Origin: Tribonema minus
Taxonomy: Eukaryota; Sar; Xanthophyceae; Tribonematales; Tribonemataceae
NCBI GenBank assembly: GCA_017506865.1
Contig: JAFCMP010000051.1
Coordinates: forward strand, 310,001-374,000
Reading direction: 5' to 3'
Length of the DNA: 64,000 bases
The notes under the pieces were generated by a model. The model ran no database searches and had not been told where the DNA came from. It was given only the letters and a program-made list of their open reading frames with translations. A program made the translations under genes and the position numbers. Shown piece by piece: positions 1 through 36,704 of this stretch. Every line of letters begins with the position of its first letter. Positions within the stretch are counted from its first letter, which is position 1.

Positions 1-125
1 AAAAAACCGGAGGCCAGTGACCTGACCGACCGGCTTCACCGACTTGTCCGTTAGCCGAAGCCGGTCGGCTGAGCCGGTTTCCGCTCAAAACACTTAAAAT
101 CACAGTCTAAGAGCGCCGCGCATAC

Positions 126-3100
126 CTGTAAAAGCGCCGCCCGTGAGAGACGACATCATACAGGTGCACCACCGGCGGGTCCTTAATCACCACCAGTTCC
201 TTCAGCTGAACCACCTCCACCATATCGCTCCCCTCTTCCCCCCCCTCGCCCCCCCCCGCCCCCTCCTTCGCCTCCTGTGCCGCCTTGCTCTCCTTCCGCA
301 GGCCCAGAAACCCCCCGCTGCCGCGCGATTTCGTGGCAGCGTTCGCGGCGGGCGCTGCTGACTCACTCTCAGAGTCTGAGTCATCGGTGTCCGAGTCGGT
401 GGCCAGTTCCGCGCGTGGAAGCGTGACGCGGTGTACCCCCGCAAGTCGGGCCAGGACCTGGTTCTCAGAGTACTTCAAGTCCGGCATGAAGAGTTGAAGC
501 TGCGCATCCGCAGGGAAAGGAGGGGAATAATGAGCGCAAAAGAGGCCAGTGATTCCAAGCCGGACTGGCACCGAGAGGTGGCGAGTTTGCTGGTGCATGC
601 GCGTGGCACGCATGCATAGGCTGTAGAACGTTGGGCGATCTACAGTTGATATGCACACGTTGACACAATCACATGCATGACCGCACAGCATACCTTTAGA
701 CAGGCATGATGTGGAGTGGTGATAAGGCCCCCATGGCGTACTCTCCCCGCTTCGCCTGAGGGCAGTACTTGATCATGGACTTGTACTATCGAGATCTCAT
801 CTAGCCTATGCACACAAGTATACACGTGAAATCACACGCATGTAAGGAATCCAATGCAAACACACAGCACGCGAGACATGCGCGCCCGTCTCACCCGAGG
901 CTAACCCTAACCCTAACCCTAACCCTAACCCTACTTGGCCCTCACGGCTCTAGAACGAGCTTCAAAACCTGCCTGCGCCTTTGCACGTGCACCCGATACA
1001 ATATAATTGCATGCAGGCATGCACAATTCGTGGAAGTTCACGAGTGCACAGTGACGTGCACTCGTGAACTTCCACGAATTCCATCAATGAAGATTTCCAT
1101 ACGATGTGAGCTTCCCGTCTCACCTGAGGGAAGTACTAGGCCCCGACGGGCTCTAGAATGAGTTTCGATGCCTGCTCTTGAGTGTCCATACGATGTGACA
1201 CATTGTACCGACTGCTGTGAAGCAGTCATAGGGGCCCCCACAACATGCGCTCCTCTGCTCACCTGAGGGAAGTACTTGGCCCTAACTGGCTCCAGGATGC
1301 TGGCTATCCAGCCCTCCCCGTCCGCACCAGACATGGGGCGGTAGGGGCGGCTGTAGGGGCATGGGTTGCTGCGCGGGTCTGCATCCCAGTACTGCACAAG
1401 AATGCAAGGAAGCCAGCAAGTGTGATTGAGTGTTTTCACAAGCTGACACTTGATGTTCAGTTCATGATGACGGTGGTACCGCTGCCTGTCTGCGAATAGG
1501 TGCAATCATGACTCAGCTGAGCGCTGCTGGGGGTCTGCGTCCCAGTACTGCACAAGAGTTAGGGCAAGGATTAGGGTTAGGTTCAGGGTTACCCTGTTCT
1601 GACTGCTGCAGGAGTCTGCGTTTCAGTACTGCACAAGGGTTAAAGATAGGATTAGGGTAAGTGAGGTTTAGGGTCTGCGTTCCAGTACTGCACGAGGGTT
1701 AAAGATAGGGTTAGCGTTAGGTTTAGGGTTACTACCCTCACCCTACTGCTGCGGGGGTCTGCGTCCCAGTACTGCACAAGAACATAAGAAAACCAGCAAG
1801 TATCACTGAGTGTTTTCACAAGATGAACCTTGAGTTGAGTCATGATGACGGTGGTGGCGCTGCCTGTTGCTGCCTGCCTAGCCCTGAGGTTAGGGTTAAG
1901 GAACAGGTCGTTGTTGCTGAGAAGTGGGGTCTGAAATATAATTGTGCGTGATAGCTGCAGTCGGGGTTGGCTGAGCGGTACTGTACCTTTTGTACGCAAC
2001 AAATCACTATCGCTGGGGTGTTCCCTGCTGCACATCTGCTTCCAACACCCTAGACCTGTTGAGTTGCATCATCACACTTGGTGCACTCGCGTGCCTCACA
2101 AACATATCAATGTGTGGTTGAAAGCAGGGTTGGGGTTAGGGTTGGACTACCACCGCATGTATTCATGTACGTAGGTATGTGTACCTGCTGTACCCATTTT
2201 TTCATTACCACCGCATGGGATGTGGTGGTCGGGTGTTCTTTGCTGCTGGCACAGCCAGCTTTGGCTGCCTAAATGTGCCTGATCTCAGCATGATCCAGTG
2301 TATCCATATGACTTGCGTACATGCATTTGTGTGGTCAGGGTTGGGGTTGAGGTCAGGCTGGGCTCTGAGCAGCTGCGTTTCAAGCATCGCAACTGCCAGG
2401 CACGTATGCAAGATTTCTGGTTTCAGAGCACTGATTTGCACAAACATGCACTTGAGTTCAGCACTGCAAATCACTCATACTTTGTAGTACAGAAGTATCA
2501 GACAATCCAGTAAATAGCAAGTCAATCCTCCATACCTGTGCACGTCATGGCGCCTGCGCACCAGGTGCAGCTACTGCCTCTGCTCCAAGTTGTTCAACTT
2601 TGAAGTATCAATCCAGCCATACATACATGGTTCACACTACAACACGACGCGGGTACAACCGTACAGTACAGTACAGTACATTCTTGATACATACATACCT
2701 GCACGTCGTGCCGCCGGCCCACCAGGCGCAGCCACTGCATGTGCTCCAAGTTGTTCAGCTTTGAAGTACAAAGCAGCGTGGTACATACACAGCTCACACT
2801 ACAACACGATGAGGGTACAAACACTCATAATACATACATACCTGCACGTCGTGCCGCCGGCCCACCAGGCGCAGCCACTGCCTGTGCTCCGAGTTCTTCA
2901 CCTCCGCGCAGCCTATGGTGGTGACGGTCTTGCCGTTGGTGCTGCCACCGAACACGCTCACGAAGTCGGGGTGTGACTCGATGTGGCTTGGCAGCGTGGC
3001 CATCGCGTGCCGCTTCAGGGTGAACTCCCCCAGCTGTGGTGGCAGATGCATGAAATGAGCAGCGCCCGGAGTATGTACTTCAGGCATTACAAGGGGGTAT

Positions 3101-6100
3101 GTGCGTGCATGTGAACAGGGTGAATCTGCCCAGCTGTGGTGGCAGATGTAAAAAAAGTGCAGCACCTGTTTTGTAAGGAGGCTATGCTTCAATGCACACG
3201 TAGGTACACAGAGTGAACCCAGCTGTGGTGGCAGAAGCCAATTTGAGCAGCGCCCGGAGTAAACAATTGTACTTCTATGAGAAGGCTATGCTTCAATGGA
3301 CATGTATGTACAAGGCATGTGAACTGCCCAGCTGTGGTGGCAGATGAAAGAAATGAGTGCCCGCAGTACGCATTTCGAGCATCAGAAGGGGTGTGTGTGC
3401 ATGCATCTGTCGAGGGCGAATGCACCGGCAGAAGGAAGAAGTGCGCAATACCAGCAGTAAATTTCTATATGAGAAGGCTGTACTTCAATGCACATGTACA
3501 AGAGGTGAACTCGCCCAGCTGTGGTGGCAGACAATAAGGTGTGCACACCTTAGACGACGGAGTCGCGACGGACAGTCGCGACAGCGCTAGTGAAACTCTG
3601 TCGTGACACTGTCGCGTACGAGTGCCCCACTTGCTGTCGTCTGCACGACACCGTCGCACAAGGATGGTGCAGTTTCCGTCGTCTGCACGACGTCTGTTGC
3701 GCATGGTTGTCGCAGCTCCGTTCCATTCCGTCGAACCAAAATAACGCTTATTTGAGTGATTGCGGCATTGTTGCATAGCGAGCTGGCAGCGTATAGACGC
3801 ATCGCCGCCTTTGCTTGCGTGTGGATGCTCATTTCATTGTCAAACATTGTCAAAACATGACTTCAACTCCGTCAACTGGCAGTTTCTGAGGAGTTCAGGA
3901 TCTCCGTCGTCTGCACGACACCGTCGACTGCTGCTGCTGGATAATACTGTTGCCGTTGTCAGCACTGTCGCATACAGTCACGCCAGAGTCTGTCGTATGC
4001 ATAACTCCGTCATCACGCCTCGGTCAGATTAGCCGTCGTGCTGCTCGACTCCGTCACGACGGACTGTCGTCTAAGTTGTGAAGGTGTGCATGCATGCATG
4101 TATCATGGTGAAGGTGCACAGCTGCTGAGGCAGACAGGAGTGCAGCGTTCCAAACACTGCCATACTGCGTGCACACGGAGGTAAAGCGTGGCGACAGCAG
4201 ACACATAGTGCTTCCCGAGCAACCCTCACCCTGACCCTTGCCCCAACCCTAACCTTTACCCTAACCTAACCTAACCCTAACTTAACCCTAGCACCAGTAG
4301 CTGCATACGGTATGTACCTGCACGTTGATCTCCACATCCACGCCCTGGGTGGTGAGCCTCAGCCAGTCCTCATAGCTCATGCTGCACCCAAAACGTACAA
4401 GAGAAAGCAATGTGGTCAGAACGCACAGCAACGATCAGGACGCAGAGCAACGCTCAGCATATTCAGCGATGCTCAACATGCTCAGCAACGCTCAACAATG
4501 CTCAGCAACGCTCAGCTTAGCAGCGCTCAGCTTAGCAACACACAGCAACGCTCAGCATTTGCTCAGCAACGCTCAGCTTAGCAGAACTCAGCAGATGCTC
4601 AGTCATTAGGGCAGTCAGCGACGCTCAGAAAGCCATGTTCAAATGTGTCGCCCGCCCATGCGGAATGTGAACAGAGAGAGTCAAGTCGCTGCCGCATGCT
4701 TCACACTCGCACATACTTTTTGTGGAAATACACACGTAGTTACGGTTACGCGTACGCTGTACACCAGAAAATTCAACAACTGTATTGCTGCTACACGAGA
4801 GAGAAGTACTTGGGGAATTTCCGATTGCGCCACCAACTTCTGAATACACACACTTCGAGTGGTATACGTACCTGTGCACAACGGCACTGGCAAAATTGTG
4901 TACAGTGATGCTTATTGAGTCCCTCGTTCCTCCGCCAGCTATTGTACACCAGTGGGTTAGGATTAGGGTTAGGGTTAGCGGTAGACACACTTTCACCGAG
5001 CTGTATACTCTGACAATATCACCATACTCCAATTTTTTTGTTGCACTTGAAGTACATGCTTCAGCTCACTGGTTGTGCCAGTGTGTCACACACTATCGCT
5101 CAGCTGTATTGACAGACACGATCTCCATACTTCAAGTTTCTTATACTTGAAGTACATTCTTCAACTTACTGGTAGTGCCTGGCGCCGCTCTGCTCGTCTG
5201 CCAGCTGCTGCTGCACCAGTGCGACGTCCGGCACAAAGCGGCCGATGCAGTCGGTGCGCAGCATGGTGGTCCACTGGCGGTTCACAAAGCTGCACAAACA
5301 CACCATAGCAGCAGTCACGAACAACATTCAGAGGGTGGTTAGGGTTAGGGTAACGTAACTTATTACTATTAGGGTTAGGGTTAGGTTACCCTAACCCAGG
5401 GTCAGGGGTAACCTAACCCTAACCCTAACCCTATGCAGTCGGTGCGCAGCATGGTGGTCCACTGCCGGTTCGCAAAGCTGCAACGACATACAACAGCAGC
5501 AGTGACAAACAACATCCAGATGAGAGTTTCAAAAGCAAACAGCCGTTTGCTTGAAGTACGCTAATCTTATTACAGCTGCACCAGCGCACACACAAAAACA
5601 AATCAGTCACGAACACTATTCAGAGGTGCGTACTCAAACAGTCGCAAGGATGCAGCCGTTTGATGAGCTCTTGAGCAGCTGACACATAATTGACAACTGT
5701 CGATCGCCGAAGCTGCATTGATCATTTTTCAAAGATCATTGTTGAACGGCATATGCACACTCAACCAAAGTATGCTCACTTATTCGAGAAACTCGTTGGT
5801 GTATGACGCGTGCTCGTGGAAATCGGCTCACTGCATGCCTGTCCGCACGATGACTCTAAGCTTAACCTTAACAATGTCCTCCTCCTTGTGTGACCCTAGC
5901 GCTTACCTGCGCCCTGACACTGCTCCAACACTAACACTAGCCTGAACCTTGTATTCTGGTGTCTTTAGAACTACCTGGTAACATGCGCCCTGACACTGCT
6001 CCAGCCCTAACGCTAGCTCACACCTCATACTCCTGTATGTTGAGGTTTACATCGCCCTGCGGCGCATGCCGATCCCCCGTGAGCGTGATCACCCTGATGA

Positions 6101-9100
6101 CCCCCTCCATGACATCATCCCCTACCAACCCTAACCCTACTCATCAAGCCAGAAATTATAGTCTTAGCCCAAAGCCCTAACCCTACGACTAGGGTTAAAG
6201 CTAGTTTTTTTTTCAAATTTAACCTTATAAGGTTGGAATTAATTTACCTGGTGTCATCGCCCTGCGGCGCGTGCCTGTCCCCCGTGAGCGTGATAACCCT
6301 GATCACCCCCTCCATGACGTCATCACACCCCTGCGCGCCCGGAGTGCTGCCATCAAAGCCCTGAGCACTGTCATCAAGCCCCTTACTGATGCTGCCGTCG
6401 GTGGCGCCGCGCTGCCCCCCTCCCGGGGGGCCCTTGGTCTCGTTGGCGCGCAGCCACTTTACGATCTTGTTTCGGTGCTGAGCGAGGATGTCAAAGATCT
6501 CCGTGGGGGGTATCTGTTGTTGTGGGATAGGTATGAGGGAACAGCTACAACAGTTGTTGTGGGCTGAGCGAGGATGTCAAAGATCTCCGTGGAGGGTATC
6601 TGTCGTTGTAGGGTAGGTATGAGAGCACAGTTACAGTTATACCAATGGTTGACAGCTGACGAAAGGTGTACTTTGCTCTGAAGAGCCTGCCAAGACTACA
6701 CCTGATGCGTGTTCCACAGGTACGCAGTGCTGCCAGCAATGAAGCCTTGGCTCCACTTACGGTTCAGCCTCACCCTCACATTAACTCTAACTTAGCCTTA
6801 CCCTACCCCTAACCCTAACGTTGAATAGCGCACAGCGAGCACTCACTTTGCAGCAGCTGCGACACACCCAGGTAGTAGTTCATCATTATATAAATGCCTC
6901 TATATAAATGCCTCTGACAGTGCTGCAGTACCACACTGCCAGAACCCTAATGCAGCCCTGCGATGTCAACAATCTGCGCGCCGCTGCTGCACTACTGACG
7001 CCCGCTTACAGGTTCAACCCGTCAACTGATTTTGCATGCCCCATCGACACACAAGTACATACCTGCAGCTGCGAGGCCACCTGGTCATACGCCTAGCTCT
7101 TGCGACGACCGTTTGCGCCCGTTGCGATGCTACATACATATTTCAGCAATTGAACATACATTTACACATCCCATCAATCAAGCATGCCTACCCCATAACC
7201 ACATACATACCTGCAGCTGCGAGGCCATCTTGTCGTACGCCTGGCTCTTGCGCCGCTGCTGCACGACCGACGTCCGCTTGCGCCCCTTGCGGCTCGTCAC
7301 CTCCAGGTCGAAGCGGTAGTGCACCGTAAGCCACACGTGCGCCGCAATGACGACGCTCGCCACGGTGAAGTTGACGTCGGCAGCGGTCATGTTCTTGAAG
7401 AGGAACAGGATGTGCGCGTGCAGCAGGCAGGCGCCCTCGGTGTCATTCTGCTTCACCAGGCGCGCCAGCCACCGCTCCAGCATCGGGAACGCCACCTGAA
7501 GATTACAGTGACGGCAGTTGAGCGTTGTCATAAGCATCAGTAACAATGTTTTAGGTGGCGCCACCGCTCCAGCATTGGAAACGCCACCTGGGAATTACAG
7601 TTGAGCGTTGTGGTGAGGAATGCTAGTTGAAGTTTTGGCTTGATGGGGCGACTTGACAGTTAAAGGTGAGTGCTCTGTTGAATGAAGAAAGAACGAAAAC
7701 TGAGGCTTCTACTTCACCAGGCGCACCAGCCACCGCTCCAGCATCGGGTATGCCACCTGGAGATGACAGTTACGGCAGTTGAGCGTTGTCGTAAGCATTA
7801 GTCATAATGTTTTAGGTGGCGCCACCGCTCCAGCATCGTGATTGCCACCTGGCAGTTACAGTTGAGCATTGTGGTGAGGAATGACAGTTGAAGATAGAGC
7901 TTGACCAGGCGCGCCAGCCACCGCTTCAGCATCGGGGAACGCCATCTGACAATGACTGTTACGGCAGTTGAGCATTGTGCCGGGAATGGCGGTGGAATAC
8001 ACAGTTCGGGTCTACATAGATTCCATTGTGGCAATCTACTCAGTGAAGCGTGGCAGCAGCTGCTGCAGCACGAATGTTTCAATCTGACAAGTGGATGCCA
8101 ACAGCAGAGGTGAGGGTGGTAGTTGCAGTGACATCTTGGTGCTTGGTGTGAAGCAGTGGCAGTAATCTGGCCATGTTTGTGTTAGTAAGCAGAAGACTGG
8201 TGCTGAACGCTGCCTGCGATGCTACCCACAGCTGTTCCCCTTCGTCAACTGAGCCGGCAAAGCTGCACCAGCAACTGGGGTGAGCGGTGCTGCTGCCGCT
8301 GAAACCGGCTGGATGTTGGCTGCATGTAAGTTTAACGGACCTCGTTAGGCTTGAGCCAAATCTAGCTTCAGCGCTACTGAAACATGGAATGCAAGCATAA
8401 CTGACCTTGTTGAGCTTGAGGCGCATGCGCTTCTGCGCCTGCGCCAGCGTCGCCAGCACCTGCGGCGCGCCCTGCAGCCTAACCCTAGCCCTCACCTCAA
8501 CACTAGCTTCAACCCTACTGTAATGTTTGATACAACCATAACTGACCTTGTTGAGCTTGAGGCGCATGCGCTTCTGCGCCTGCGCGAGCGTCGCCAGCAC
8601 CTGCGGCGCGCGCTGCTGCTGCTGCAGGCCGCGCGTCGCGTTGCACAGCGCGTCGTCCTGCAGGTACAGCATGAACGCCTCCACGCGAACGCACAGGCGG
8701 ATCACGTACAGGATCACGGGGCTCTGGTTGATGCTGTACTTGCCCGTGTCCAGCTCCAGCGCGGTGTCGAGCATCTGCAGAGGTTAGGGTTAAGGTAGGG
8801 TCAGGATTACGGCTAATTCTGGGTTACGGTTACATTGGTTAGGATGGAAGGGAGGCACACTGAACGGAGCACAATATTTTACTAACCCTAAGTATCAGGT
8901 GCTGTACTTGCCCGAGCCGGGCTCTAGCGCAGTGTCAATCATTCTGCAGTTACGGTTAGTATATGGCCTTCCGCAGTGTCGATCATTCTGCGAGGGTTAG
9001 GGACAGGGTCAGGGCTTATGGTAGGATCAGGAGTAGGGGTAGGAATAAAGAGGAGGCGCACGCAATGTAGCATGGCAGCGGCAGCAGTTCATATCATCAG

Positions 9101-18100: not shown

Positions 18101-21100
18101 ACCGCTGGTCCATCTACATTCAATCGACTGGGACTACAGTAGGGTCTCAAGAAGGGCTCAACTGCTGTCAATAAGTCTGGGCTAGCGGTAGGTCAAGTGA
18201 TGGCACAGCAGGCCCATCTGCAGTCAGTCAAATAGGGTTAGGGTTGGGGCTCATGTGCAGTCAATGGTACAAGATTATGGAAAATCACTGGGTCAGTGCA
18301 CGGTTAGGGTTGGGGCTCATGTGCAGTCAATGGTACAAGATTATGGAAAATCACTGGGTCAGTGCAGGGTCAGGGTTAGGGTTAGCACAGCAGCGCTCCA
18401 AACGCTAGGGTGATGCGCACGTTCTGGCGAAATGACAAGAGGTTGGGTTTCGGTTGTAGGGCAACAGGTCCACTGATAGGATTGATGTGAGCGCCACATG
18501 GCCTGGTGAACACTGAGTAGAAGTACTTCATGCTTCAAATTCAACCAGCTTGGCTTTGAGCAACCCTCACATACCACAGCGCCAGCAAGAACAACATTTT
18601 TTAATCAAGGCTCCAACCAGGTTAAGTCCATCACACATGCGTAATAATGTAAACCACATGTAAGGGCGAGTATTGGGTAAGCATCAGTTCCCTATAGGCC
18701 TTCAATTAATTTGAAGTCAAGCCAAAGCTGGGCCAGACCCAGAATTTTAAGGTAGACCATCACCAGTGGCCTACAAGGGAAGATAAACAAGTACATATGT
18801 ATACTGCCACACCCACCCCACCTAACCCTAACCTAACCCTAACCCTAACCCATGTATGTGCACACGCCTGGAATACATTACGAAGCAGCAGGAGCTTTTT
18901 CGAGCGCACACCGGCAAAGCCCATGCGGTAGTTCGCACACAACAAGGCACTGACGGCTTCGTGGCGATGCCCAGCTCAAACTTCAAGTCCTACTTGACAC
19001 AGCCCACGTCGCACAGCAGCACCAGCAGCACGCCAGACTTCAACGACCGCTGAAACCTCAAGTGGCGCGCGCACACCAACCTCCAATTATTACCTCAACA
19101 TCATCAACATGAGAAGCCAAACTTCAACTTCTCACTCTAAGACCGGCGCCCGCGGCGCATGGCGCATGCGACGCACTGCCGCCTCCGGAACCCAACTTCA
19201 ATGACATTTTAAACTTCAAGTTATGTGGAGCAGCGCGCACCTGATTGAGGATGTGGGCCTGCGTCTCGTAGCGCATGCGGCGGTGTACGCCCTGCCAGAG
19301 ATTCCAACTTCAATGACATATGTTGAAACTTCAACTGATGTAAAGCAAAGCTCACCTGAGGATGGGGGCGCGCGTCTCATGGCGGATGCGACGCACTGCC
19401 GCCTCCAGATGCACAACTTCAATGACATGAATTATAAGTTCAACTTATGTAAAGCAGTGCTCACCTGATTGAGAATGTTGGCCTGCGTCTCGTAGCGCAT
19501 GCGCCGCTGCGCGCCCTGCCAGAATTTCATCTTCAACTACATAACTTGAACTGACGTAAAGCAGCAGTGCTCACCTGATTGAGGATGTGGGCCTGCGTCT
19601 CGTAGCGCATGCGGCGGTGTACGCCCTGCCAGAGATTCCAACTTCAATGACATATGTTGAAACTTCAACTGATGTAAAGCAAAGCTCACCTGAGGATGGG
19701 GGCCCGCGTCTCATGGCGGATGCGACGCACTGCCGCCTCCAGATGCACAACTTCAATGACATGAATTATAAGTTCAACTTATGTCAAGCAGTGCTCACCT
19801 GATTGAGAATGTTGGCCTGCGTCTCGTAGCGCATGCGCCGCTGCGCGCCCTGCCAGAATTTCAACGTCAACTACATAACTTGAACTGACGTAAAGCAGCA
19901 GTGCTCACCTGATTGAGGATGTGGGCCTGCGTCTCGTAGCGCATGCGCCGATGCGTCCCCTGCCAGAAGCAGCGCGCCGCCGCCTCGGGGTGCCCCACGG
20001 GCAGCGGCAGCGGCAGCACGCGCGTGAACAGGTGCGCAAGGAGCGTCGCCCGCAGAAGATACGTCGACTTCAACACGTCGCGCTGGTTCGCCAGCAGCGT
20101 GCACACGTGAACCGCGCGCTGCAGCGCTCGACCGACGTCTTCGAACGTCTCGAGCTCCCCCTTGTCGGGAACGGAGGTGAGCTCGACGGGGCGCACGATG
20201 GGGGGTACTGCGGACCCCCCTGCCAGGTGGTCCACCCCCGTGTCACGTCTCAGTCGGCCGAAGAGGGGGAGGACGCCGGACCAGGGGACCTTGGCGCCGC
20301 TGACGGCGAGGGCGGGGGGCAGCACCTCCAGGCCTGCGTGAATGCACGTTCACGAAATGCATGTTCATGAAATACATTATTTATGGTTATTTTTCTTGAA
20401 ATGTTGCTCGTGATGTGGACCTTGGCGTCGCTCACAGTCAGGGCGAAAGGCAGCACCTCCTGGCCTGCAATCATGCATGTTCATGAAATGCATGTTCATT
20501 GAGTTTTGTCTTGAAGGTTATCTCTGAAGTGTTGCTCGTGATGTGCACTTTGGCGCCGCTCAGGGCGTGAGGGGGGGGCAGCACCTCCAGGCCTGCATTC
20601 ATGATCATAAACTCACAGAAGGGATTCATGAATGGTCCTTTCCGCCATGGTGAGAGTAGATGCAGCATCTCGAGGCCTGCATTGCTGTGCTTTCGTAGAC
20701 TAAATGATCATGAGATTGGTGTCATCGAGAGGCAGTTTAGTATTGTGGGCGATAAAAAGGCACTTTTGGGCGTCGCTCACAGCGCGGGTGGGGGGCAGCA
20801 CCTCCGAGCGTGCGTGCATGCACGCTGATGAAATGCATGTTCATGACATTCGTTGTTGATTGTAGATTTCTGAAGTGTCTCTGATGACGTGCACTAGTGG
20901 CGCAGCTCGGGGCGAGGGCTGGGAGCAGAACTTCAAGCAAATGCATTTCATGACTTTGAAGTTTAGTGAAATGCTCTGTGGCGCCGAGCACCTGGGAATG
21001 GGTTAGGTTAGGGTTAGCTAAGGTTAGCATTAGGGTTAGCTAACCCCAACCCTAACCCTAACCTAACCCTAACTCTAACCCTAAGTTGGAACTGCTCATG

Positions 21101-24100
21101 ACTAGAGGCTCCACCTCAACACCCAAACCGTTCCAGGCGCACAGCTAGCCTAAGGATGCACACAAGCTACTGCGCATGACATACTGGTGTTGTGCAGCAC
21201 CTATGTAGGTATTCCCGTCGCTGCCATCGGCGCCGTTTCGTCGTTCACGTGTACTTGAACTTACACAACTGAAGTCGAACTTGCAGGATCGCATGCCCCT
21301 GCTAGGAATGTGCATCAAGAATGCTTGCACATATGCAATCTTAACGTGTATGTGCCCATGCTCGTCACCGCCATCACGGCACCGCGCACTGTCACATGCG
21401 CATGTGGTGAAGACCCATATGTCACTCGCTATGCGCAAAAAACACAAGTGTTCGTTCATACGTACCCGTCTTGCGCAGCACCTCTGCCTTGCCGACCACC
21501 GCCGTGGCGCACTCCCTTATCGCCGTCAGCGCCGCTGCGTCCATATCCGGGTTGCGTGCGTTGTACGCATCCGCAGCCGCCCTGGCCAGCTCCCTGCATG
21601 CCAGCTGAATGGGCACCGCGTCTAGGCCTCGAAGGCGCATGCCGCTGGCTCGAACCCCGTCGAGATCAGCCTGCAGCAGCTGCACCGTGGCCAGGCGCAG
21701 GAGGACGTCGCAGTACTGGCCCTGCTGAGCGCTGAGGCCGCTCAGGCGCAGTGCATGGCGCGTTGCCGCAAGGACCGACCTGTGTTTTTTTTGGGGGGGG
21801 AGTATCGATTAGATACAGTCTCATGATTCTCCCTGGTAAGGTGATAGCTATTAGTACTGGCCCTGCGGAGCGCTGAGGCCGTTGAGGCGCAGTGCGTGGC
21901 GCGTTGCCGCGAGCATCGACCTGTTTGTGCGCGGGGGGGGGGGGGGGGGGGGGGGGTGAGGGGGGGAACACGTATTATCATACTTGATGATATGCGATCT
22001 CATGACTCTGTTGTATGTCAAACTTGTATTGTGGTATGATAACCTCTCACTTCAAGTATTGGTACTGGCCCTGCTGAGCGCTGAGGCGCAGCGCGTGGCG
22101 ACCGACCTGTGCGGGGGGGTGGGGGGGTCGAGTACCGACACTGACGGGCAAGAGCAAAGTTGGCATGATCTCATTGACTGAAACGGGCTGGGCCCCTTCA
22201 CTTAAAAGTAATCCACCCATGCCAATGCCACGTGTGCTCTGAGACAGGGCCCAAACCCCAAATCCTACATATTTCAACCGCAACCACCCTTCCCCCTTCG
22301 CACGTTGAACAAGGACTGATCTACATTTACTGGCATCGCTCTGCAGTATCAGTACCCACCTTGCTCGGTTAGGTTTAAGGCTAGATAAGGGTTGGGGCTG
22401 GGGTCGCTCAGCATCGCCCACTCTGCTTGGTCGCACGCCCTGCTGTGACATGCTGTACTGGCCCCTCGAGCAGCGGCGCGTTACACGCGTCACATTCCAC
22501 TGCACTGCGCAGCGATACAGGCGCCAATCCCGCCCCCCCCCCCCTTTACCCTGGTCTTAATTATGACCCACCAGGGACCTGACCCCCCTCCCCCAACCCT
22601 CAGTTGCTACACATTCGCTGACCTGCACTTTATTCTTTTGACCTAGGGTTGCCCTCTCAAAAGTGGCCCACAGCATTGCTCAACAACACGCCGTAGGACA
22701 TTTTGTGCTACAGAGGGCGCAAGTTGAAGTACAACATCACTGCTTCTTAGCATCGCACGCACGATTGCTGACCTGCACTTGCTGGGGTTGCCCCCCAGCG
22801 GCGGCGCATCAAACTCCACAGCATCGCTCAACGACACGGACGCCGAGACGTTCGCGTAGAGCGGGCGTGAGTTGAGGTAGGGCAGCAGCCTCTCGTACAG
22901 GAGCTCGGGGCCATTGGCCTTGTTGGGGTATACCAGGGGGCGCATGGCCAGGAACCAGAAGGAGGCGTCCTTGAGGCGCGATGCCGGTATCTCGGTGAAG
23001 TGGAGAGCTGCGGCATTGCAGAAGAAACAAGCGGGGGAAGATGGTCATGCTGCACAGGTCATGCGCCACCGAGAAAAGGGTTTAATATGGTGATGGCTGA
23101 GGAGACACCAGGTTGGGTGGGGTAGATCAGGGGGCGCATGGCCAAGAACCAGAACGAGGCGGCCTTCAGGCGCGATGCCGGTATCTCGGTGAAGTGGAGC
23201 GCTGCCACATTGGACACAAGAAGACAATTCCATGAGAACAAGTTTTTTTGGTGCATTCAAATTTAGAGCTTTGTGGCAGAAATTGGCACTTAATTGTCTG
23301 TTGCGCACGCAATACGTATCGGGCGCATGCGCCAGAGAGAGACATTCTTGAGGCGCTGGGCCGTTCTTTGGGTGAAAGTGGAGCCCTGCAGCATTGGCTG
23401 CATTCAACAACGGGAAGAGAATAACCTTTACTTTGAAAAACCGTTCAGTTAAGGTGTTGCGCATCAAGCTGACATCGTAGCAGGTGTTCTTGTTTACAGA
23501 AGACTTATCTTCTGAAGATTCAACAGTTGCATGTACAGGGTTAGGGTTAGCGTTAGGCTATACAAAGGCAAGTCAACTCAGGGATGCCAGAAGAGGCACG
23601 ATTAAACTGCGACGCTGGTAGCAGCCCCATAACCCTAACCCTTACCCAAACCCTGCACCCTAAAGTTAGTCTAGTGCATGTCACTACTTGTACGTGATGG
23701 CACTGCAATATAGCAGCTACTGAGCATCGCCACCATCGCCGCGTGAAGCATCATGGCATGAACCGCAGTCAGCCATGAAGCTAACCCTAACCCTAAAACT
23801 TCTCCTCAGCGCCCATGTCAACTTCGGCGCATGCAAAGTCAGGGTGAGATTGGAATTGCGCCAGGCGCGCCAGTCCAACGTCCTAACCTTAAGTTAGGGT
23901 TAGGGTCAGGTGTGGCAAGCCCCGCATTGTTTTCAACTCCTTCGATCCCATGAAATATGAGTGGAAACCTAGCCTCAAATCTGGGCTGCCAGCACACCTG
24001 GCTGCTCCATTCATACCCTCACGTTAATCATAAACCCAACCCTGCCGCTGAATCTGCGCTGCCAACATACATGCAGTGGTTCTGCGCACTCCTCAGTTCT

Positions 24101-27100
24101 ACCCATAGACCTAAAAACCGCATGATAATGATATCCCCCCCCCCCTCTCACACCACCGGCAGCAAACATAGGACTGAGGAAGCGCATGTTGAGATTGACA
24201 CTGTTGACACTCCTCTCTTTTGCATTAGTGCAGCCCTAGCCCTATGAATTGGCGCATACCTGGCAGCTGCTGAACGTTGCCATTGGCAGGGTCAGGCCTC
24301 ACAGCATGATACCGCGCCCCCTGCCCCCGATTCACACTACAGTCAGCAAATATGTTTATAAATAAGGAAGCGCAAGTCGGGATTGACACTCTTGACACTC
24401 CTTCCTCTTTGCCTCTGCGCAACCCTAGCGCTATGAATTCGCGCATACCTGGCAGCTGCTGAACGTTGCCATTGGCAGGGTCCGGCCTCACAGCGTGGTA
24501 CCCCGCCCCCTCCCCGCTGGGGTTCACCACCGTCAGCGAGTACGAGTCCGCAGACACGTCAGTGCGCATAGAGTCTGCACTTAAAGTTGACGCTCCCGGC
24601 ACCTCCTTCCGCACCAGGAAGACCAGCAGGTGGCCCGTTCCGTCCTCTCGCATCCACCCCCCCGGGGCCATGGCAAACTCCCCTGCCCGCATCTGGGGGG
24701 GGGGGGGGGGGGGGGGGGCAAGCGATGCGTCATGTAGGTGAACACATGGAAATCACATTCATGAGTGAAAAAACTGAGGTGTGTGTGTGTATGGTATCTC
24801 CCAGGACGCCTCGCATGTAGTTGCAGCGCGGGTGTTGGCTCCCCGGCGCGCACCAGAGCGGTTGAAGTGAGTGAAGTTGAAGTTGCAATGATTCTCACGG
24901 CGCGGGTTGGGGACAGCAGTTGCGTCAGTGCATCAGCATGCATGCCACTCGGTGCACACATCCCTGCAGTGCAGCGATCATGGCTAATAGCTGTCCGGTT
25001 TGCTCGCGAACAAATGGCTAATAGCTGTTCGGTTTGCTCGCGAACACAAGATCACTCATGTCTGGGTATCATACCGCACATATGAAAGTACGCACCTGCT
25101 TGGCCTTTTTGACCCCCTTAGTAAAAACTTCAACATGGAATGCTGCCTTGAACTACCGCCATAAATACTTGAAGTACCATTCCCCTTCCTTCAGTTGACG
25201 CATTAGTAAAGAACTTCAACATGAGATGCCGCCTTGAACGGCCGCCACATAGTACTTGAAGTACCGTTCCCCCTTCTTCAATTGGCGCATTAGCAAAGAA
25301 CTTCAACATGACATGCCGCGTTGAACTACCGCCATTTAATACTTGAATTACCGTTCCCCTCCTTGCAGTTGACGCAATACGCACACGCACCCGCTTGACC
25401 TTGTCGACCCACTTGTTGACGAACAGCAGGAACCGATCGTCATTGCACGCGGCAATCAGCAATGTATCGCTCCGTGTACTCTTGAGCAATCAATCACTTG
25501 GATGAATTAATTGACTGAGTGTCCACACACATGTACCTGCTTGACCCACTTGTCGAGGAACAGCAAAACTCATTGCCGTCGCACCCAGCAATGGCCTACG
25601 TATTACACCGTGTGCTCTCGAGCAACCAATCACTTGGATGAATTAGGTGTCCACACACAAGTACCTGCTTGACCTTGTCGACCCACTTGTTGAGGAACAG
25701 CAGGAACCGATCGTCATTGCACGCTGCGATTGGGAATGCCTCTGTAAAGCCATACGCCTCCCGCAGTGCTCCGTGCACCGCCCTGTGGCGATCGCTGTTG
25801 GTGTCCGTTGCCACCTTGCCCACGGCCCGCGCCATGAAGTCAAATGACGCCGCCAGTGCCGCAATATCTGCAGTATTGAGAGAAATGTATCGTGTCAGCA
25901 AGACATTGGAGAGAGATGTGCCGCGTCGGCAACTACCATTACATGTGCCAAACGGTGGCGAGGGTCACAATTGGGTGTTGGTGTCCACCTTGCCCACGGC
26001 ACGCGCCATGAAGTCAAATGATGCCGCCAGCGCAGCAATAGCTGCAGCAACCAGATATGGGCCCAGGGGTGTATGTTGCCATCCATGATCCACACGAGAT
26101 TCTGTCACAGTACCAAGAATGACTGGAACCAGAATGGGGGCGAGGTTTGGCCTGGTCATGTTTGCTGTTGGTGTTTGTGCACGGCATGCGCCATGAAGTC
26201 AAATGACGCCACCAGCGCCGCTATGTCTGCAGCATTAAATGGGATGTCACATCAGCAAATGACTCTCATCACGTGCTGTCAAGAGGTGCGAAGGATTAGG
26301 ATGAGGGTGTTGTAGCTAGCCTGACACCCTCCACATGGTAACGCTTGCCGTTCGCGTTCGTTGCCACCTTGGCAGCGGCTTGCGCTAACCCTAACCTTAA
26401 CCCTAAGATTTGATGGTGCCGCAGTGTATGCGGCGAAAAGAGTATGGCAGCTAGGAGCAAAATCACATGCTACCAAATCACGAAATCTTGGTAAAACCAG
26501 GGTTGGCGTTATCAGAAGCGTCCCTGGCTTCAAGCTCCAGCTATTGGACACAGCCATCAATGTTATTACATTGTGTATGGAATGATGCCACCAGCGCTGA
26601 TGCATCTGCAGCAAGTAGAGCCGGGCACGGGGATGTATGCATGTCATCAGCTGTGCTCTGAGATTACTTGCCCTGCGAGGTTTGCGCACAACAGGTATAT
26701 ACAGAGTGTACTGATACTTCAATGTGTACATACCTACCCATCGCTGTTGCTGGCACCCTTCTATTTTTACCGTTCAGCTGCAGTCCGCGGTTCGGGCATG
26801 AAATAAATCATGTTGTACACGCATGTACTGTACATGCATGTATTGTACATGCATGTCCTGTACACGCATGTACTGTACACACATGTACTGTACACTCATG
26901 TACTGAAGTCGGCGGTCAGGGAACTGTCTGCTGCACCACAATAAAGCAATGAGGGTTAGGGTCAGGGTAACCCTAACCCCCTAATCCTAACCCCTAACCC
27001 TGATCAATGACCTCGAAGCGGCCAGCTCAGGTGCTACTCCTTGCAGTTGGGGTTTCAACCTATGTAGGGTTGGGTCGCTTGAACGCACCTTGTGTGGGAC

Positions 27101-27467
27101 TGTCCTTGCACCTTGTGTAGGATTCTGTTTGTTGTGTCCGCAAATGCCCACAGCCTTCCACAGCACAATGCGTATACAACCTCAAATAAGCCGAACGAAG
27201 CCAACTTGGGCATATACTTATGCCTTAAAGTTTCGGCCAAGCCCTCAGGCTAGGGTTGCGCCGCTCACCTGGAGTGGGATTGTCCCTGCGCCTCATATAG
27301 GGGTCCGTCATAGTGTCCGCAAATGCCCACAGCCTCCACAGCGGCTTGGCAAACCCCAGGGCGCTCGCTGCGCGCCTGTGCCCGCTCTCTCCCGCGCGCG
27401 ACGATTGCAGAAACGACGCTCCGGGCTTCCAGTGCGTAACCGCCGCCTCCGCCGCTCCTGCCGCTTG
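126..27467 (-). CDS. Large conserved protein of unknown function, 20-exon gene, 3' end beyond the window
   Basis: Exons in coding order (high to low): 27467-27269, 25867-25665, 24692-24449, 23007-22773, 21779-21466, 20333-19909, 17670-17504, 16438-16327, 14320-14067, 12869-12794, 11580-11093, 10357-10165, 8774-8547, 7495-7211, 6513-6248, 5289-5170, 4381-4318, 3033-2842, 1391-1263, 499-126. Every exon ends at a GT donor and starts after an AG acceptor, and every junction phase matches the next, giving about 1,520 codons without a stop. Conserved-looking blocks include DRFLLFLNKWVDKVK, FWFLAMRPLVYPNKANGPE, FGFSMGYFEGESEW, REDHVLFGFETSMS, EHRQWLRLVGRRHDVQ and VVHLYDVVSHGRRFYRYAR. The middle is rich in predicted helix; an acidic Ser/Asp stretch lies near the end. 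I see no signal peptide, membrane segment or catalytic motif. I do not recognise the family by name. The 5' start is open: an ATG at 27473 overlaps the proposed acceptor, and the SH3 exons upstream are also phase-compatible. A donor at 125 shows that more exons follow. Confidence 0.8.
900..933. repeat. Interstitial telomere-like tract (CCCTAA)n
   Basis: Five or so consecutive CCCTAA units in an intron of the large minus-strand gene. Confidence 0.95.
1025..1080. repeat. Perfect 25-bp inverted repeat (hairpin)
   Basis: Arms 1025-1049 and 1056-1080 are perfectly complementary around the 6-bp loop AGTGAC. It lies in the intron between exons 1391-1263 and 499-126 of the large minus-strand gene. 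Confidence 0.9.
1525..1790 (-). repeat. Acceptor-side echoes of exon 1391-1263
   Basis: The exon start with its acceptor (plus strand GGGTCTGCATCCCAGTACTG then CACAAG) is repeated near 1534, 1612, 1673 and 1754, separated by TTAGGG-like spacers. In each copy the minus strand still reads CTTGTGCAGTACTGG. Confidence 0.8.
2540..2780 (-). repeat. Donor-side echoes of exon 3033-2842
   Basis: Copies of the exon end (plus strand CCTGCACGTCGTGCCGCCGG in the real exon) lie at about 2699-2765, nearly intact, and 2536-2600, more diverged. The intron sequence next to them (TTCACACTACAACACGA) is duplicated as well. Confidence 0.85.
3100..3536 (-). repeat. Acceptor-side echoes of exon 3033-2842
   Basis: CCCAGCTGTGGTGGCAGA, the real acceptor junction at 3029-3046, recurs near 3129, 3217, 3328 and 3515, each with GTGAAC-like exon sequence on one side. 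A further diverged copy is at about 4107-4135, beyond the inserted MITE-like element. Confidence 0.85.
3549..4075. mobile_element. MITE-like element with 10-bp terminal inverted repeats
   Basis: The ends are CTTAGACGAC and GTCGTCTAAG, perfect inverted repeats. The interior is a patchwork of variants of CCGTCGTCTGCACGACACCG (near 3632, 3676 and 3901) and other GTCG/CGAC-rich stretches unlike the surrounding intron. It sits in the intron between 4318 and 3033. I see no coding capacity and no clear target duplication, though the flanks share a GGTGTGCA motif. Confidence 0.5.
4220..4292. repeat. Interstitial CCCTAA-type tract
   Basis: Degenerate AACCCT/AACCTAACC units just downstream of exon 4381-4318 in gene direction. 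Confidence 0.85.
4421..4629. repeat. Minisatellite, CTCAGCAACG-type units
   Basis: About 200 bp of degenerate tandem units built on GCTCAGCAACGCTCAGC with variants (CTCAGCTTAGCAG, CACAGCAACG), in an intron of the large minus-strand gene. Confidence 0.85.
5334..5433. repeat. Interstitial TTAGGG and CCCTAA tracts facing each other
   Basis: GGTTAGGGTTAGGG on one side switches to CCTAACCCTAACCC on the other within 100 bp, next to an acceptor-side echo of exon 5289-5170. Confidence 0.92.
5434..5484 (-). repeat. Acceptor-side echo of exon 5289-5170
   Basis: About 50 bp repeat the exon start (plus strand CAGTCGGTGCGCAGCATGGT and onward) including the acceptor AAGCTGCA, with three or four mismatches. 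A donor-side copy is near 5041-5080. Confidence 0.9.
6028..6122 (-). repeat. Donor-side echo of exon 6513-6248
   Basis: Plus strand CATCGCCCTGCGGCGC then CGTGAGCGTGAT and CACCCTGATGACCCCCTCCA repeat the last 70-80 bases of the exon. An acceptor-side echo is at about 6560-6612. Confidence 0.85.
7553..7965 (-). repeat. Acceptor-side echoes of exon 7495-7211
   Basis: The exon start (plus strand GCCACCGCTCCAGCATCGGG then AACGCCACCTG) recurs at about 7556-7592, 7712-7762, 7818-7853 and 7905-7950. Each copy keeps the acceptor and some adjacent intron (TGACGGCAGTTGAGCGTTGT). A donor-side copy lies at 7050-7100. Confidence 0.88.
8396..8478 (-). repeat. Donor-side echo of exon 8774-8547
   Basis: About 80 bp nearly identical to 8535-8617, covering the donor (CTGACCTTGTTGAGC on the plus strand) and the last 70 exon bases. 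It is close enough to serve as an alternative exon end. Confidence 0.92.
8890..9345 (-). repeat. Acceptor-side echoes of exon 8774-8547
   Basis: Copies of the exon start (plus strand GTGCTGTACTTGCCCG ... GTGTCGAGCATCTGCAG) lie near 8898-8948, 9110-9157 and 9293-9337, with TTAGGG-like spacers between them. Confidence 0.8.
10085..10128 (-). repeat. Donor-side echo of exon 10357-10165
   Basis: CATGCATACCTTGTCCAGGC then TGTCCAGCA repeats the donor and the last 20 exon bases. An acceptor-side echo (GCATCGAGCACCTCCTGCAG) lies at about 10487-10532. Confidence 0.85.
10690..11000 (-). repeat. Donor-side echoes of exon 11580-11093
   Basis: The exon end (plus strand CCACAGCGCCTGCATCTTCA ... GGTATGCGCAGGTACGGCGC) is repeated almost perfectly at about 10891-11002 and in diverged form at about 10708-10800. 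Confidence 0.9.
11636..12270 (-). repeat. Acceptor-side echoes of exon 11580-11093
   Basis: At least six copies of the exon start (plus strand GAGCACTGCAGC ... TTGTTGCCGAAGCCGCGCAC then CTCGCAGCCCTG) lie near 11652, 11738, 11852, 11945, 12034 and 12155, with a trace near 12246. They are separated by poly-G/GT tracts. Several still encode GCEV..FG with an acceptor in front. Confidence 0.9.
13016..13345 (-). repeat. Acceptor-side echoes of exon 12869-12794
   Basis: TGCACTTCTGGCTGAGCATT at 13073 mirrors the exon start near 12850-12869. The block before it (CTAGGG..GGAGGCGCTTGCA) recurs at 13026 and 13230, so exon edge and intron were copied together. Confidence 0.65.
13567..13990 (-). repeat. 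Donor-side echoes of exon 14320-14067
   Basis: Plus strand ACCTAGTGGGCGCCATGACA then GCCTTGAG..GGTA recurs at about 13919-13990, with a more diverged copy at 13576-13660. The codons for PELGVFRD and a lost donor can still be followed. Confidence 0.88.
14415..14892 (-). repeat. Acceptor-side echoes of exon 14320-14067
   Basis: The exon start (plus strand GCGCTGCTGGTAGCGGAAGT then AGTCGAGGACCTGCAAGCGC) recurs near 14418, 14536, 14695 and 14848. At least three of them keep the acceptor-side CCTG(C/T)AAGCGC. Confidence 0.88.
15080..15985. repeat. Large imperfect inverted duplication rich in CAG/CTG
   Basis: About 280-300 bp at 15080-15360 reappears in reverse complement at about 15985-15680, with a spacer of about 320 bp. 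Shared landmarks include GGTGCAGGT(T/G)GCAGCTGC, AAGAGCAAAAGCGCCAG and GCGCTTACGCAGCAGCAG. Both arms contain CAG/GCA runs, expanded at 15898-15935. It fills the intron between exons 16438-16327 and 14320-14067. Confidence 0.75.
16120..16165 (-). repeat. Donor-side echo of exon 16438-16327
   Basis: GTCGCAATGGCTGGCAGCGC then ACAGTCTGAAAGGCAG parallels GTTGCAATACCTGGCAGCGC at the real exon end. Confidence 0.75.
16952..17062. repeat. Interstitial CCCTAA tract
   Basis: Interrupted (CCCTAA)n with CCCTGA variants over about 110 bp in an intron. Confidence 0.92.
17157..17402 (-). repeat. Donor-side echoes of exon 17670-17504
   Basis: Plus strand CCTGTAGTGCAGGGAGCAGA (17319-17338) repeats the real exon end, and the similarity continues to about 17402. 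A second, shorter copy starts near 17159. Confidence 0.85.
17745..18366 (-). repeat. Acceptor-side echoes of exon 17670-17504
   Basis: Variants of GGCACAGCAGGCCCATCTGC followed by AGTCA (the exon-start junction) recur near 17740, 17877, 17945, 18100, 18194 and 18256, interleaved with GGGTTAGGG. Confidence 0.75.
18236..18366. repeat. Tandem duplication of a 66-bp unit
   Basis: Two essentially identical 66-bp units starting GGTTAGGGTTGGGG, within a stretch of acceptor-side copies of exon 17670-17504. Confidence 0.9.
18812..18851. repeat. Interstitial CCCTAA tract
   Basis: CACCTAACCCTAACCTAACC and following perfect CCCTAA units. Confidence 0.92.
19140..19908 (-). repeat. Donor-side exon-echo array of exon 20333-19909, 334-bp period
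   Basis: The exon's 3' end (minus strand ...ACGCAGGCCCACATCCTC, donor CAG/GTGAGC) recurs near 19238, 19350, 19463, 19572, 19684 and 19797 before the real junction at 19909; an older copy without a donor lies near 19150. Three equivalent points, 19238, 19572 and 19906, are exactly 334 bp apart, so a block already containing several echoes was duplicated again. Copies differ in retained codons and often keep a donor-like CAGGTGAGC. Confidence 0.85.
20400..20940 (-). repeat. Acceptor-side echoes of exon 20333-19909
   Basis: Plus strand GGCGCCGCTGACGGCGAGGG ... GGCAGCACCTCCAGGCCTGC recurs at about 20420-20466, 20550-20598 and 20768-20815, with a weaker trace at 20893-20935. Linked intron motifs such as GAAATGCATGTTCATGA are copied too. 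Confidence 0.88.
20998..21085. repeat. Interstitial TTAGGG-to-CCCTAA inversion
   Basis: GGGTTAGGTTAGGGTTAGC switches to CTAACCCCAACCCTAACCC, forming a telomere-motif foldback. Confidence 0.92.
21850..22115 (-). repeat. Acceptor-side echoes of exon 21779-21466
   Basis: TACTGGCCCTGCGGAGCGCT and the following 50 bases (21854-21925) repeat the exon start through its acceptor. A shorter copy lies at 22062-22110 and a diverged trace near 22455-22500. Confidence 0.9.
23109..23216 (-). repeat. Acceptor-side echo of exon 23007-22773
   Basis: About 100 bp nearly identical to 22913-23012, including codons for HFTEIPASRLK and FWFLAMRPLIYP and the exon start. A second, more decayed copy is at about 23320-23395. 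Confidence 0.92.
24170..24352 (-). repeat. Donor-side echo of exon 24692-24449
   Basis: About 180 bp match 24370-24552, covering downstream intron, donor (GCGCATACCTGGCAGCTGCT on the plus strand) and the last 100 exon bases. The copy still encodes YHAVRPDPANGNVQQLPG with an intact donor. Confidence 0.93.
25083..25600 (-). repeat. Donor-side echoes of exon 25867-25665 and a linked repeat
   Basis: TTGACCTTGTCGACCCACTT then GTTGACGAACAGCAGGAACC at 25395-25450 repeats the exon end. A partial copy is at 25535-25570 and a trace at 25094. Between them a unit of about 100 bp (AACTTCAACATG ... GCCGC..TTGAACTACCGCC) is repeated three times at 25127-25370. Confidence 0.85.
25970..26240 (-). repeat. Acceptor-side echoes of exon 25867-25665
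   Basis: GCGCCATGAAGTCAAATGA plus the following GCCGCCAGCGC..GCAATA.CTGCAG junction recurs at 25978-26046 and 26178-26232, with a trace near 26580-26612. Confidence 0.9.
26814..26904. repeat. 15-bp tandem repeat, palindromic units
   Basis: About six copies of a 15-bp unit close to CATGTACTGTACACG. GTAC and CATG palindromes recur, so the array can fold on itself. Confidence 0.9.
26949..27003. repeat. Interstitial TTAGGG/CCCTAA tract
   Basis: GGGTTAGGGTCAGGGTAACC followed by CCCTAACCCC-type units in inverted arrangement. Confidence 0.88.
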
Positions 27468-27529
27468 CTGCATGGTGGAACGTCACGATATGAAGTCGTG
27501 AAGAGGTTCAGTGGTTCGAAGATTCGATG

Positions 27530-27585
27530 TGCCGGGCTTCCAGCGTGTAATGGCCGCCTCCGCCGCTCCTGCCGCTTGCTGCATT
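27530..27585 (-). repeat. Acceptor-side echo of exon 27467-27269
   Basis: The minus strand again encodes MQQAAGAAEAAITRWKPG, a diverged copy of the exon start MQQAAGAAEAAVTHWKPG. A donor-side echo of the same exon lies at about 27075-27165 (GTGTCCGCAAATGCCCACAG). Confidence 0.9.
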
Positions 27586-36693: not shown

Positions 36694-36704
36694 CGTTTTT
36701 GCAC
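36694..36704. repeat. Target-site duplication, 3' side of the LINE copy
   Basis: CGTTTTTGCAC, identical to 40731-40741; it directly abuts the conserved 3' end of the element. Confidence 0.85.

Follow-up and report, generated by a model that had tools for sequence, protein, structure and literature searches.

Why should the introns of a gene be filled with fragments of its own exons? The question is raised by a 64,000-nucleotide stretch of the Tribonema minus genome (hereafter the window: positions 310001–374000 of contig 51, JAFCMP010000051.1, in a genome of 158.18 Mb and 554 contigs), in which a large minus-strand gene carries, beside many of its exon borders, partial copies of the exon edge together with the splice site. 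An earlier note on this DNA had claimed that nearly every intron holds such copies and that they fit a history in which segments spanning a splice junction are duplicated in place, in tandem and more than once, while coding constraint preserves a single copy. We find that in the window gene and in ten chaperonin genes the copies lie only in introns adjacent to the copied exon, and that they very probably result from recurrent local tandem duplication across exon borders followed by neutral decay, the process named exon or sequence stuttering in birds.

For the window, as for the sampled stretches described below, exons were predicted with a simple custom gene finder and passed through a redundancy filter. 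The filter removed exons shorter than 45 nt or with a low coding score, exons deemed copies of a larger neighbour, introns longer than 3,500 nt and low-complexity matches. Exons were compared with introns in a screen patterned on the published exon-stuttering screen (PMC12954441), with a lower score threshold than was used there (36 bits in the window gene). All tests reported here include neighbouring introns, which are not independent of one another.

Of the 20 window-gene introns screened, 15 contain partial copies of the exon next to them. These copies number 45 (22 donor-side, 23 acceptor-side), whereas none of the 380 non-adjacent exon–intron pairs of the gene matched. Thus exon-edge copies are present and confined to adjacent introns, as had been proposed, and only the wording "nearly every intron" proved slightly too strong. 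The three examples singled out earlier were all recovered, as the copies at 8406–8478, 23118–23199 and 24260–24326. The source sequence lies within 2 nt of the exon border for 17 of 22 donor-side and 20 of 23 acceptor-side copies. The five matches that the window screen scored as distal all fall in a separate 1.33-kb direct duplication at 35–38 kb, outside the gene (35098–36431 and 36703–38035, 96.7% identity). The copies, with their percentage identities, are as follows.

107–28651, minus strand: region of the gene holding the copies (21 predicted exons after filtering; copies in 15 of the 20 introns tested; gene ends uncertain)
27532–27568, minus strand: acceptor-edge copy of exon 27376–27457 (89.2%)
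25393–25464, minus strand: donor-edge copy of exon 25665–25867 (91.7%)
25535–25565, minus strand: donor-edge copy of exon 25665–25867 (87.1%)
25974–26040, minus strand: acceptor-edge copy of exon 25665–25867 (88.1%)
26180–26224, minus strand: acceptor-edge copy of exon 25665–25867 (88.9%)
24260–24326, minus strand: donor-edge copy of exon 24449–24692 (92.5%; tandem array, period 189)
23118–23199, minus strand: acceptor-edge copy of exon 22773–23007 (92.7%)
19241–19858, minus strand: six donor-edge copies of exon 19909–20333 (19241–19299, 19357–19393, 19465–19524, 19575–19633, 19691–19727 and 19799–19858; 81–92%)
20417–20464, minus strand: acceptor-edge copy of exon 19909–20333 (81.2%)
20547–20592, minus strand: acceptor-edge copy of exon 19909–20333 (87.0%)
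20769–20805, minus strand: acceptor-edge copy of exon 19909–20333 (86.5%)
17319–17402, minus strand: donor-edge copy of exon 17504–17635 (81.0%)
17158–17191, minus strand: donor-edge copy of exon 17504–17635 (88.2%)
16137–16166, minus strand: donor-edge copy of exon 16327–16438 (86.7%)
13924–14007, minus strand: donor-edge copy of exon 14067–14320 (84.7%)
13578–13658, minus strand: donor-edge copy of exon 14067–14320 (78.0%)
14411–14440, minus strand: acceptor-edge copy of exon 14067–14320 (86.7%)
14694–14728, minus strand: acceptor-edge copy of exon 14067–14320 (81.6%)
14846–14879, minus strand: acceptor-edge copy of exon 14067–14320 (88.2%)
10893–11000, minus strand: donor-edge copy of exon 11093–11580 (93.5%)
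10709–10792, minus strand: donor-edge copy of exon 11093–11580 (83.3%)
11643–12269, minus strand: five acceptor-edge copies of exon 11093–11580 (11643–11692, 11738–11786, 11944–11986, 12030–12079 and 12243–12269; 78–94%)
8406–8478, minus strand: donor-edge copy of exon 8547–8774 (95.9%; copied block including intron, 8362–8478)
8900–8942, minus strand: acceptor-edge copy of exon 8547–8774 (81.4%)
9113–9151, minus strand: acceptor-edge copy of exon 8547–8774 (80.5%)
7560–7944, minus strand: four acceptor-edge copies of exon 7211–7495 (7560–7587, 7707–7756, 7821–7848 and 7899–7944; 89–94%)
7063–7107, minus strand: donor-edge copy of exon 7211–7495 (88.9%)
6978–7007, minus strand: copy of part of exon 7211–7495, 39 nt inside the donor border (90.0%)
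6050–6119, minus strand: donor-edge copy of exon 6248–6513 (91.4%)
6554–6599, minus strand: acceptor-edge copy of exon 6248–6513 (91.5%; tandem array, period 86)
5430–5477, minus strand: acceptor-edge copy of exon 5179–5289 (93.8%)
2699–2760, minus strand: donor-edge copy of exon 2842–3033 (93.5%)
2539–2599, minus strand: donor-edge copy of exon 2842–3033 (83.6%)

Self-alignment of the window gave the same picture. Of 88 self-BLASTN hits, 76 begin before 28.5 kb and 12 after. Direct repeats 66–667 bp apart make up 64 of the former, and a local direct repeat accounts for one of the latter; local direct repeats cover a fraction of 0.326 of positions 1–28,700 and of 0.01 of positions 40,000–64,000. 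A short exon near 1263–1392 was among those removed by the filter, and local repeats surround it as well.

Ten chaperonin genes (L023–L032), located through exon matches to PF00118, were analyzed in the same way. The exons of six of them were defined by spliced alignment to homologous proteins (five PDB proteins and one paralogue, L029), and those of the other four by the gene finder. Exons shorter than 20 nt, zero-length exons, two tiny and the last two exons of L030, the last exon of L031 and some weak exons of L025 were removed. In this set, 36 of 86 introns hold 98 copies, 64 donor-side and 34 acceptor-side; none of the 688 distal pairs matched, and no inverted copy was found. The shuffled-intron control (three shuffles), which was done on the chaperonins and not on the window gene, reached a maximum of 30.1 bits. 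Copies are present in L023 (6/9 introns), L027 (6/9), L028 (5/9), L030 (6/6), L031 (4/7) and L032 (8/11), with a single affected intron in L025 (1/6) and none in L024 (0/8), L026 (0/12) and L029 (0/9). No clean class of contigs with copies was seen: contig C279 bears both L027, with copies, and L024, without, and the split therefore does not reflect two mixed organisms. In 20 sampled stretches of 10 kb, each at position 100,001 of the odd-numbered contigs C1–C39 and with exon models weaker than those of the chaperonins, 14 of 106 introns in 8 stretches hold copies. The pattern is spread over many contigs.

The chaperonin copies are 76–100% identical to their parents, and their exon part spans 21–135 bp (median about 52). 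Between one and eight occur per junction, with 19 of 45 junctions having just one; the maximum at a single window junction is six (exon 19909–20333). For 52 of the 64 donor-side copies and 30 of the 34 on the acceptor side, the source is no more than 2 nt away from the border; the distance is at most 1 nt for 78 of all 98, which is weaker than the chicken figure given below but was obtained at a lower score threshold. The polarity noted earlier holds: 70% of the donor copies (n = 64) lie in the 5' half of the intron and 94% of the acceptor copies (n = 34) in the 3' half. This polarity needs no special mechanism because it follows from tandem duplication and selection on the coding sequence, and coding selection alone probably sets it.

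Several arrays preserve their tandem structure. In L031, a unit of 149–151 bp, consisting of exon end, donor site and intron, is repeated head to tail. At window position 19238, a 334-bp block of about three units has itself been duplicated at about 98–99% identity, a higher-order tandem duplication. Further clean cases have units of 66 bp (window 18236), 182 bp (L017) and 121 bp (window 55442); the last, at 55442–55686, is a perfect tandem duplication outside the gene and a very recent event. Three clean cases show 3–4 matching bases beyond the unit, too few for a claim of microhomology. A satellite array with a unit of about 236 bp occupies positions 1–3750 of the sampled stretch L013, which was left out of the unit-span analyses.

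The copies diverge like neutral DNA next to a constrained parent. Mismatches fall at codon positions 1, 2 and 3 in 118/1849, 100/1845 and 283/1842 cases (6.4, 5.4 and 15.4%), a ratio of 1:0.85:2.4, near the 1:1:2 expected for a neutral copy beside a parent that changes only silently. Among border-reaching copies, donors keep GT in 38 of 45 cases and have GC in 5, and acceptors keep AG in 27 of 30. GT changes (2% and 9%) at about the rate of codon positions 1 and 2 (5–6%), and AG does likewise; the decoy sites thus show no trace of having been either kept or purged. Separately, GC replaces GT at the start of 7 of the 86 chaperonin introns themselves.

Taken together, these data suggest the following course of events. 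Short DNA stretches, with offsets mostly between 60 and several hundred bp, would be tandemly duplicated again and again within certain genes. Where a duplicated stretch crosses an exon border, splicing would continue at the outermost site, since no other choice leaves the protein unchanged; the other copy would turn into intron and decay without selection. Further rounds, including duplication of already duplicated blocks, would then make the intron longer as it fills with copies. The scheme initially proposed, in which junction-spanning segments are duplicated in tandem and coding constraint holds one copy, is supported because the copies are local, directly oriented, taken from the border and polarized, because some fresh cases are clean head-to-tail tandems, and because frameshifts and the codon-position pattern indicate neutral-like decay; introns with copies are also longer, as shown below.

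A different view of the same copies is that selection keeps them, either as genuine exons used alternatively or in mutual exclusion, or as regulators of splicing. Many copies indeed have an open frame and good splice sites: among those that reach the border, 39 of 45 donor and 25 of 30 acceptor sites score no lower than the 10th percentile of real sites. The gene finder also called serial chaperonin copies as exons. However, solved homologues contain the peptide only once where serial exons are called, 23 of 27 gaps in the chaperonin copies shift the frame, and the insertion caused by splicing at a donor copy would have a length divisible by three in just 16 of 45 cases. The GT changes are as in neutral decay, and none of the 98 copies comprises a whole exon. 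Only 2.4 whole-exon copies were expected (P(0) = 0.06), and the deficit is not significant, so that avoidance of whole-exon copies was rejected as a feature of the process. Functional alternative exons are thus very unlikely, and the copies are probably not used as exons, judging from their sequence. Of the decoy splice sites predicted in the earlier note, it is the presence as sequence that stands. An assembly artefact, whether from merged haplotypes or from spurious tandem repeats introduced by the assembler, might be suspected in nearly identical arrays, which could be miscounted. It would hardly produce copies that range down to 76% identity and have their own frameshifts and codon-position bias, nor an effect bound to exon borders and certain genes on many contigs, and we consider it highly improbable.

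Mobile introner-like elements, inserting at splice sites and bringing or duplicating exon edges, deserve consideration since introners also multiply introns in microbial eukaryotes. For the genes tested, such an element is refuted: the copies are private to their own junction in both gene sets, and a 201-bp probe of one copy against the whole genome found only itself and its parent. As a general explanation it retains almost no credibility. Equally hard to credit is initiation of the duplications by telomere-type tracts (TTAGGG/CCCTAA), even though these are frequent in the window-gene introns (for example, 901–933, 4221–4290, 17005–17061 and 21001–21084) and lie between some of the copies. 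In the chaperonins, no excess of tracts is seen in the 60 nt next to copy edges: the G strand occurs at 3–6% versus 5% in three of four settings, with 0–3% in acceptor settings, and the C strand at 3–6% versus 3%. As a separate observation, the G strand leans towards the 5' end of chaperonin introns (8.3, 5.4, 2.5 and 1.1 per kb by quartile) and the C strand towards the 3' end (2.2, 0.4, 0.9 and 2.8 per kb), in counts that include overlapping permutations and may be dominated by a few tracts; the 5' lean of the G strand was not seen in the window gene. Palindromes lie at window positions 1025–1080, 5369–5428 and 58331–58558, the second of which is telomere-like and is located between two copies of one exon edge.

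Several results weigh against recurrent tandem duplication with neutral decay. The bare mechanism does not account for the four chaperonin genes, out of ten, that are nearly devoid of copies (one affected intron among 35), and the sampled stretches gave 5 distal matches beside 29 proximal ones. Only 7 of 41 near-identical ungapped runs are full head-to-tail units (L008 and the L013 satellite excluded), and 3 of 9 BLAST pairs with at least 95% identity span 90% of the unit. Over 199 pairs, the full-unit signal is modest, with a median span of 0.78 versus 0.62 in shuffled flanks and spans of at least 0.9 in 35% versus 22%. We read the partial spans as insertions and deletions that followed duplication; spacers, later deletions or another copying route may also have contributed. 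Lastly, mismatches are about 2.6 times as frequent at codon position 3 as at the other two positions, slightly more than the factor of about 2 expected under simple neutrality.

The proposed role of the copies in intron growth is supported by intron length: in the chaperonins, the median is 798 with copies (n = 36) and 375 without (n = 50). Five intron positions are common to the paralogues L029 and L030, and the introns there add up to about 2.4 kb in L029, a gene without copies, and 6.1 kb in L030, in which all six introns have them. The sixth L030 intron (7801–8446) is missing from L029 and has copies on both sides; in this single intron, the acceptor copy lies at 326–401 of 645, not at the intron start.

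Introns with copies are flanked by exons of higher GC content at third codon positions (GC3) than introns without them, in the chaperonins (0.919 versus 0.782), in the sampled stretches (0.923 versus 0.863) and within the six copy-rich chaperonin genes (0.926 versus 0.875, p = 0.018), in comparisons that all ignore clustering by gene. The division into copy-rich and copy-poor genes was made after the data had been seen, so its Fisher test and the gene-level GC3 test are descriptive. Other observations speak against a link to GC. Sampled regions of 0.64–0.69 GC (L012, L014, L018, L020 and L022) have 0–2 local repeats, the highest counts of local repeats are in regions of 0.53–0.59 GC, and several upstream predicted exons of the window with GC3 of at least 0.9 have no copies. 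Regional GC as such was therefore rejected as the driver, the GC-richest sampled regions having few repeats; only flanking-exon GC3 shows the link. By analogy with the proposal made for birds, we favour error-prone repair or unequal strand exchange in recombination-prone high-GC3 genes as the candidate upstream cause.

Contrary to the earlier note, which knew of no named description, the pattern is the exon stuttering described in the chicken (PMC12954441, Genome Biol Evol 2026). According to that study, introns of chicken dot chromosomes hold partial adjacent-exon copies with splice sites, in 3.4% of cases (190 of 5,572) and seldom in introns of other chromosomes, with 1–44 copies per expansion (median 4), an exon part of median 36 bp and more than 90% of sources within 1 base of the exon border. 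The chicken data also demonstrate extensive intron length polymorphism within the species, and the authors place the phenomenon in a GC-rich chromosome class and mention stuttering in GC-rich gerbil genes as data not shown. The algal pattern works like exon stuttering and agrees with the testable parts of its definition: matches are proximal, not distal, the source is at the border, the splice site is copied, and the copies are direct and strictly local. In both systems, partial exon edges with a donor or acceptor form imperfect tandem-like copies in the adjacent intron while the coding sequence stays intact, one gene is affected and its paralogue is not (PHF8/PHF2 in chicken, L030/L029 in the alga), and there is a tie to high GC of the coding sequence (GC3 in the alga). 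The alga differs in density, with 15/20 window-gene, 36/86 chaperonin and 14/106 sampled introns affected, at thresholds that differ from those of the chicken study, and in having fewer copies per junction and a longer exon part. The hosts differ as well, a bird and a photosynthetic microbial eukaryote; the genome has no fewer than 92 matches to light-harvesting proteins at exon level, and two gene fragments fit the chlorophyll a/c type best, which indicates photosynthesis and probably a lineage with a red-algal-type plastid. An assignment to Haematococcus, prompted by AACCCT tracts, was dropped as improbable, since one published primer of that alga had no match in the genome and the light-harvesting proteins are closest to chlorophyll a/c types. 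Searches for an alveolin, a cryptophyte phycoerythrin and a peridinin protein family returned no match, which for the latter two does not imply absence. No report of stuttering in a microbial eukaryote was found in open-licence PubMed Central full text, nor is it mentioned in passages of Haematococcus genome papers. The alga thus represents a dense and phylogenetically distant occurrence, not a new kind of process.

Intron gain through tandem duplication inside an exon has reportedly been described by Rogers in 1989, Gao and Lynch in 2009 and Hellsten in 2011. That process, which is also mentioned in PMC2809761, likewise involves local tandem duplication of exon sequence and splice sites, but it creates a new intron inside an exon, beginning with sequence of the following exon part and ending with that of the preceding one, whereas in the alga old introns grow and the copies retain junction order and side. 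Introner elements are dispersed families. They resemble the algal copies in changing intron content on a large scale in microbial eukaryotes and differ in that related copies would be found in many genes. Finally, the short direct repeats of 4–30 bp at intron borders that PMC11782384 interprets as insertion footprints are also direct repeats near splice sites, but the algal copies are tens to more than 100 bp long, serial and one-sided.

As for the window gene itself, its predicted N-terminus (start near 28.5–29 kb) carries an SH3 domain according to Pfam, and a Pfam search with the 832-aa second part of the protein returned no family. An assignment as a DUF3638-type protein was dropped, as Pfam gave it no support and found only the SH3 domain at the start.

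Intron growth is largely unexplained, and here its record is legible: each copy stands beside its parent, and age, rate and loss can therefore be read intron by intron. Occurrence in both a microbial eukaryote and bird microchromosomes makes a lineage-specific cause less likely, and the alga offers a small genome of culturable size in which to test the cause. The likeness to the chicken hints at a general mode of intron growth. The donor copies also pose a splicing question, as most of them look usable and yet must be passed over if the protein is to be made; in practical terms, such copies mislead gene prediction. It is possible, although we put this forward only tentatively, that stuttering makes introns grow in eukaryotes at large, in genes with high GC3 that are perhaps recombination-prone, that in this alga it is a main source of intron sequence, and that it is tolerated because the spliceosome picks the outermost of several near-identical sites, as exon definition would.

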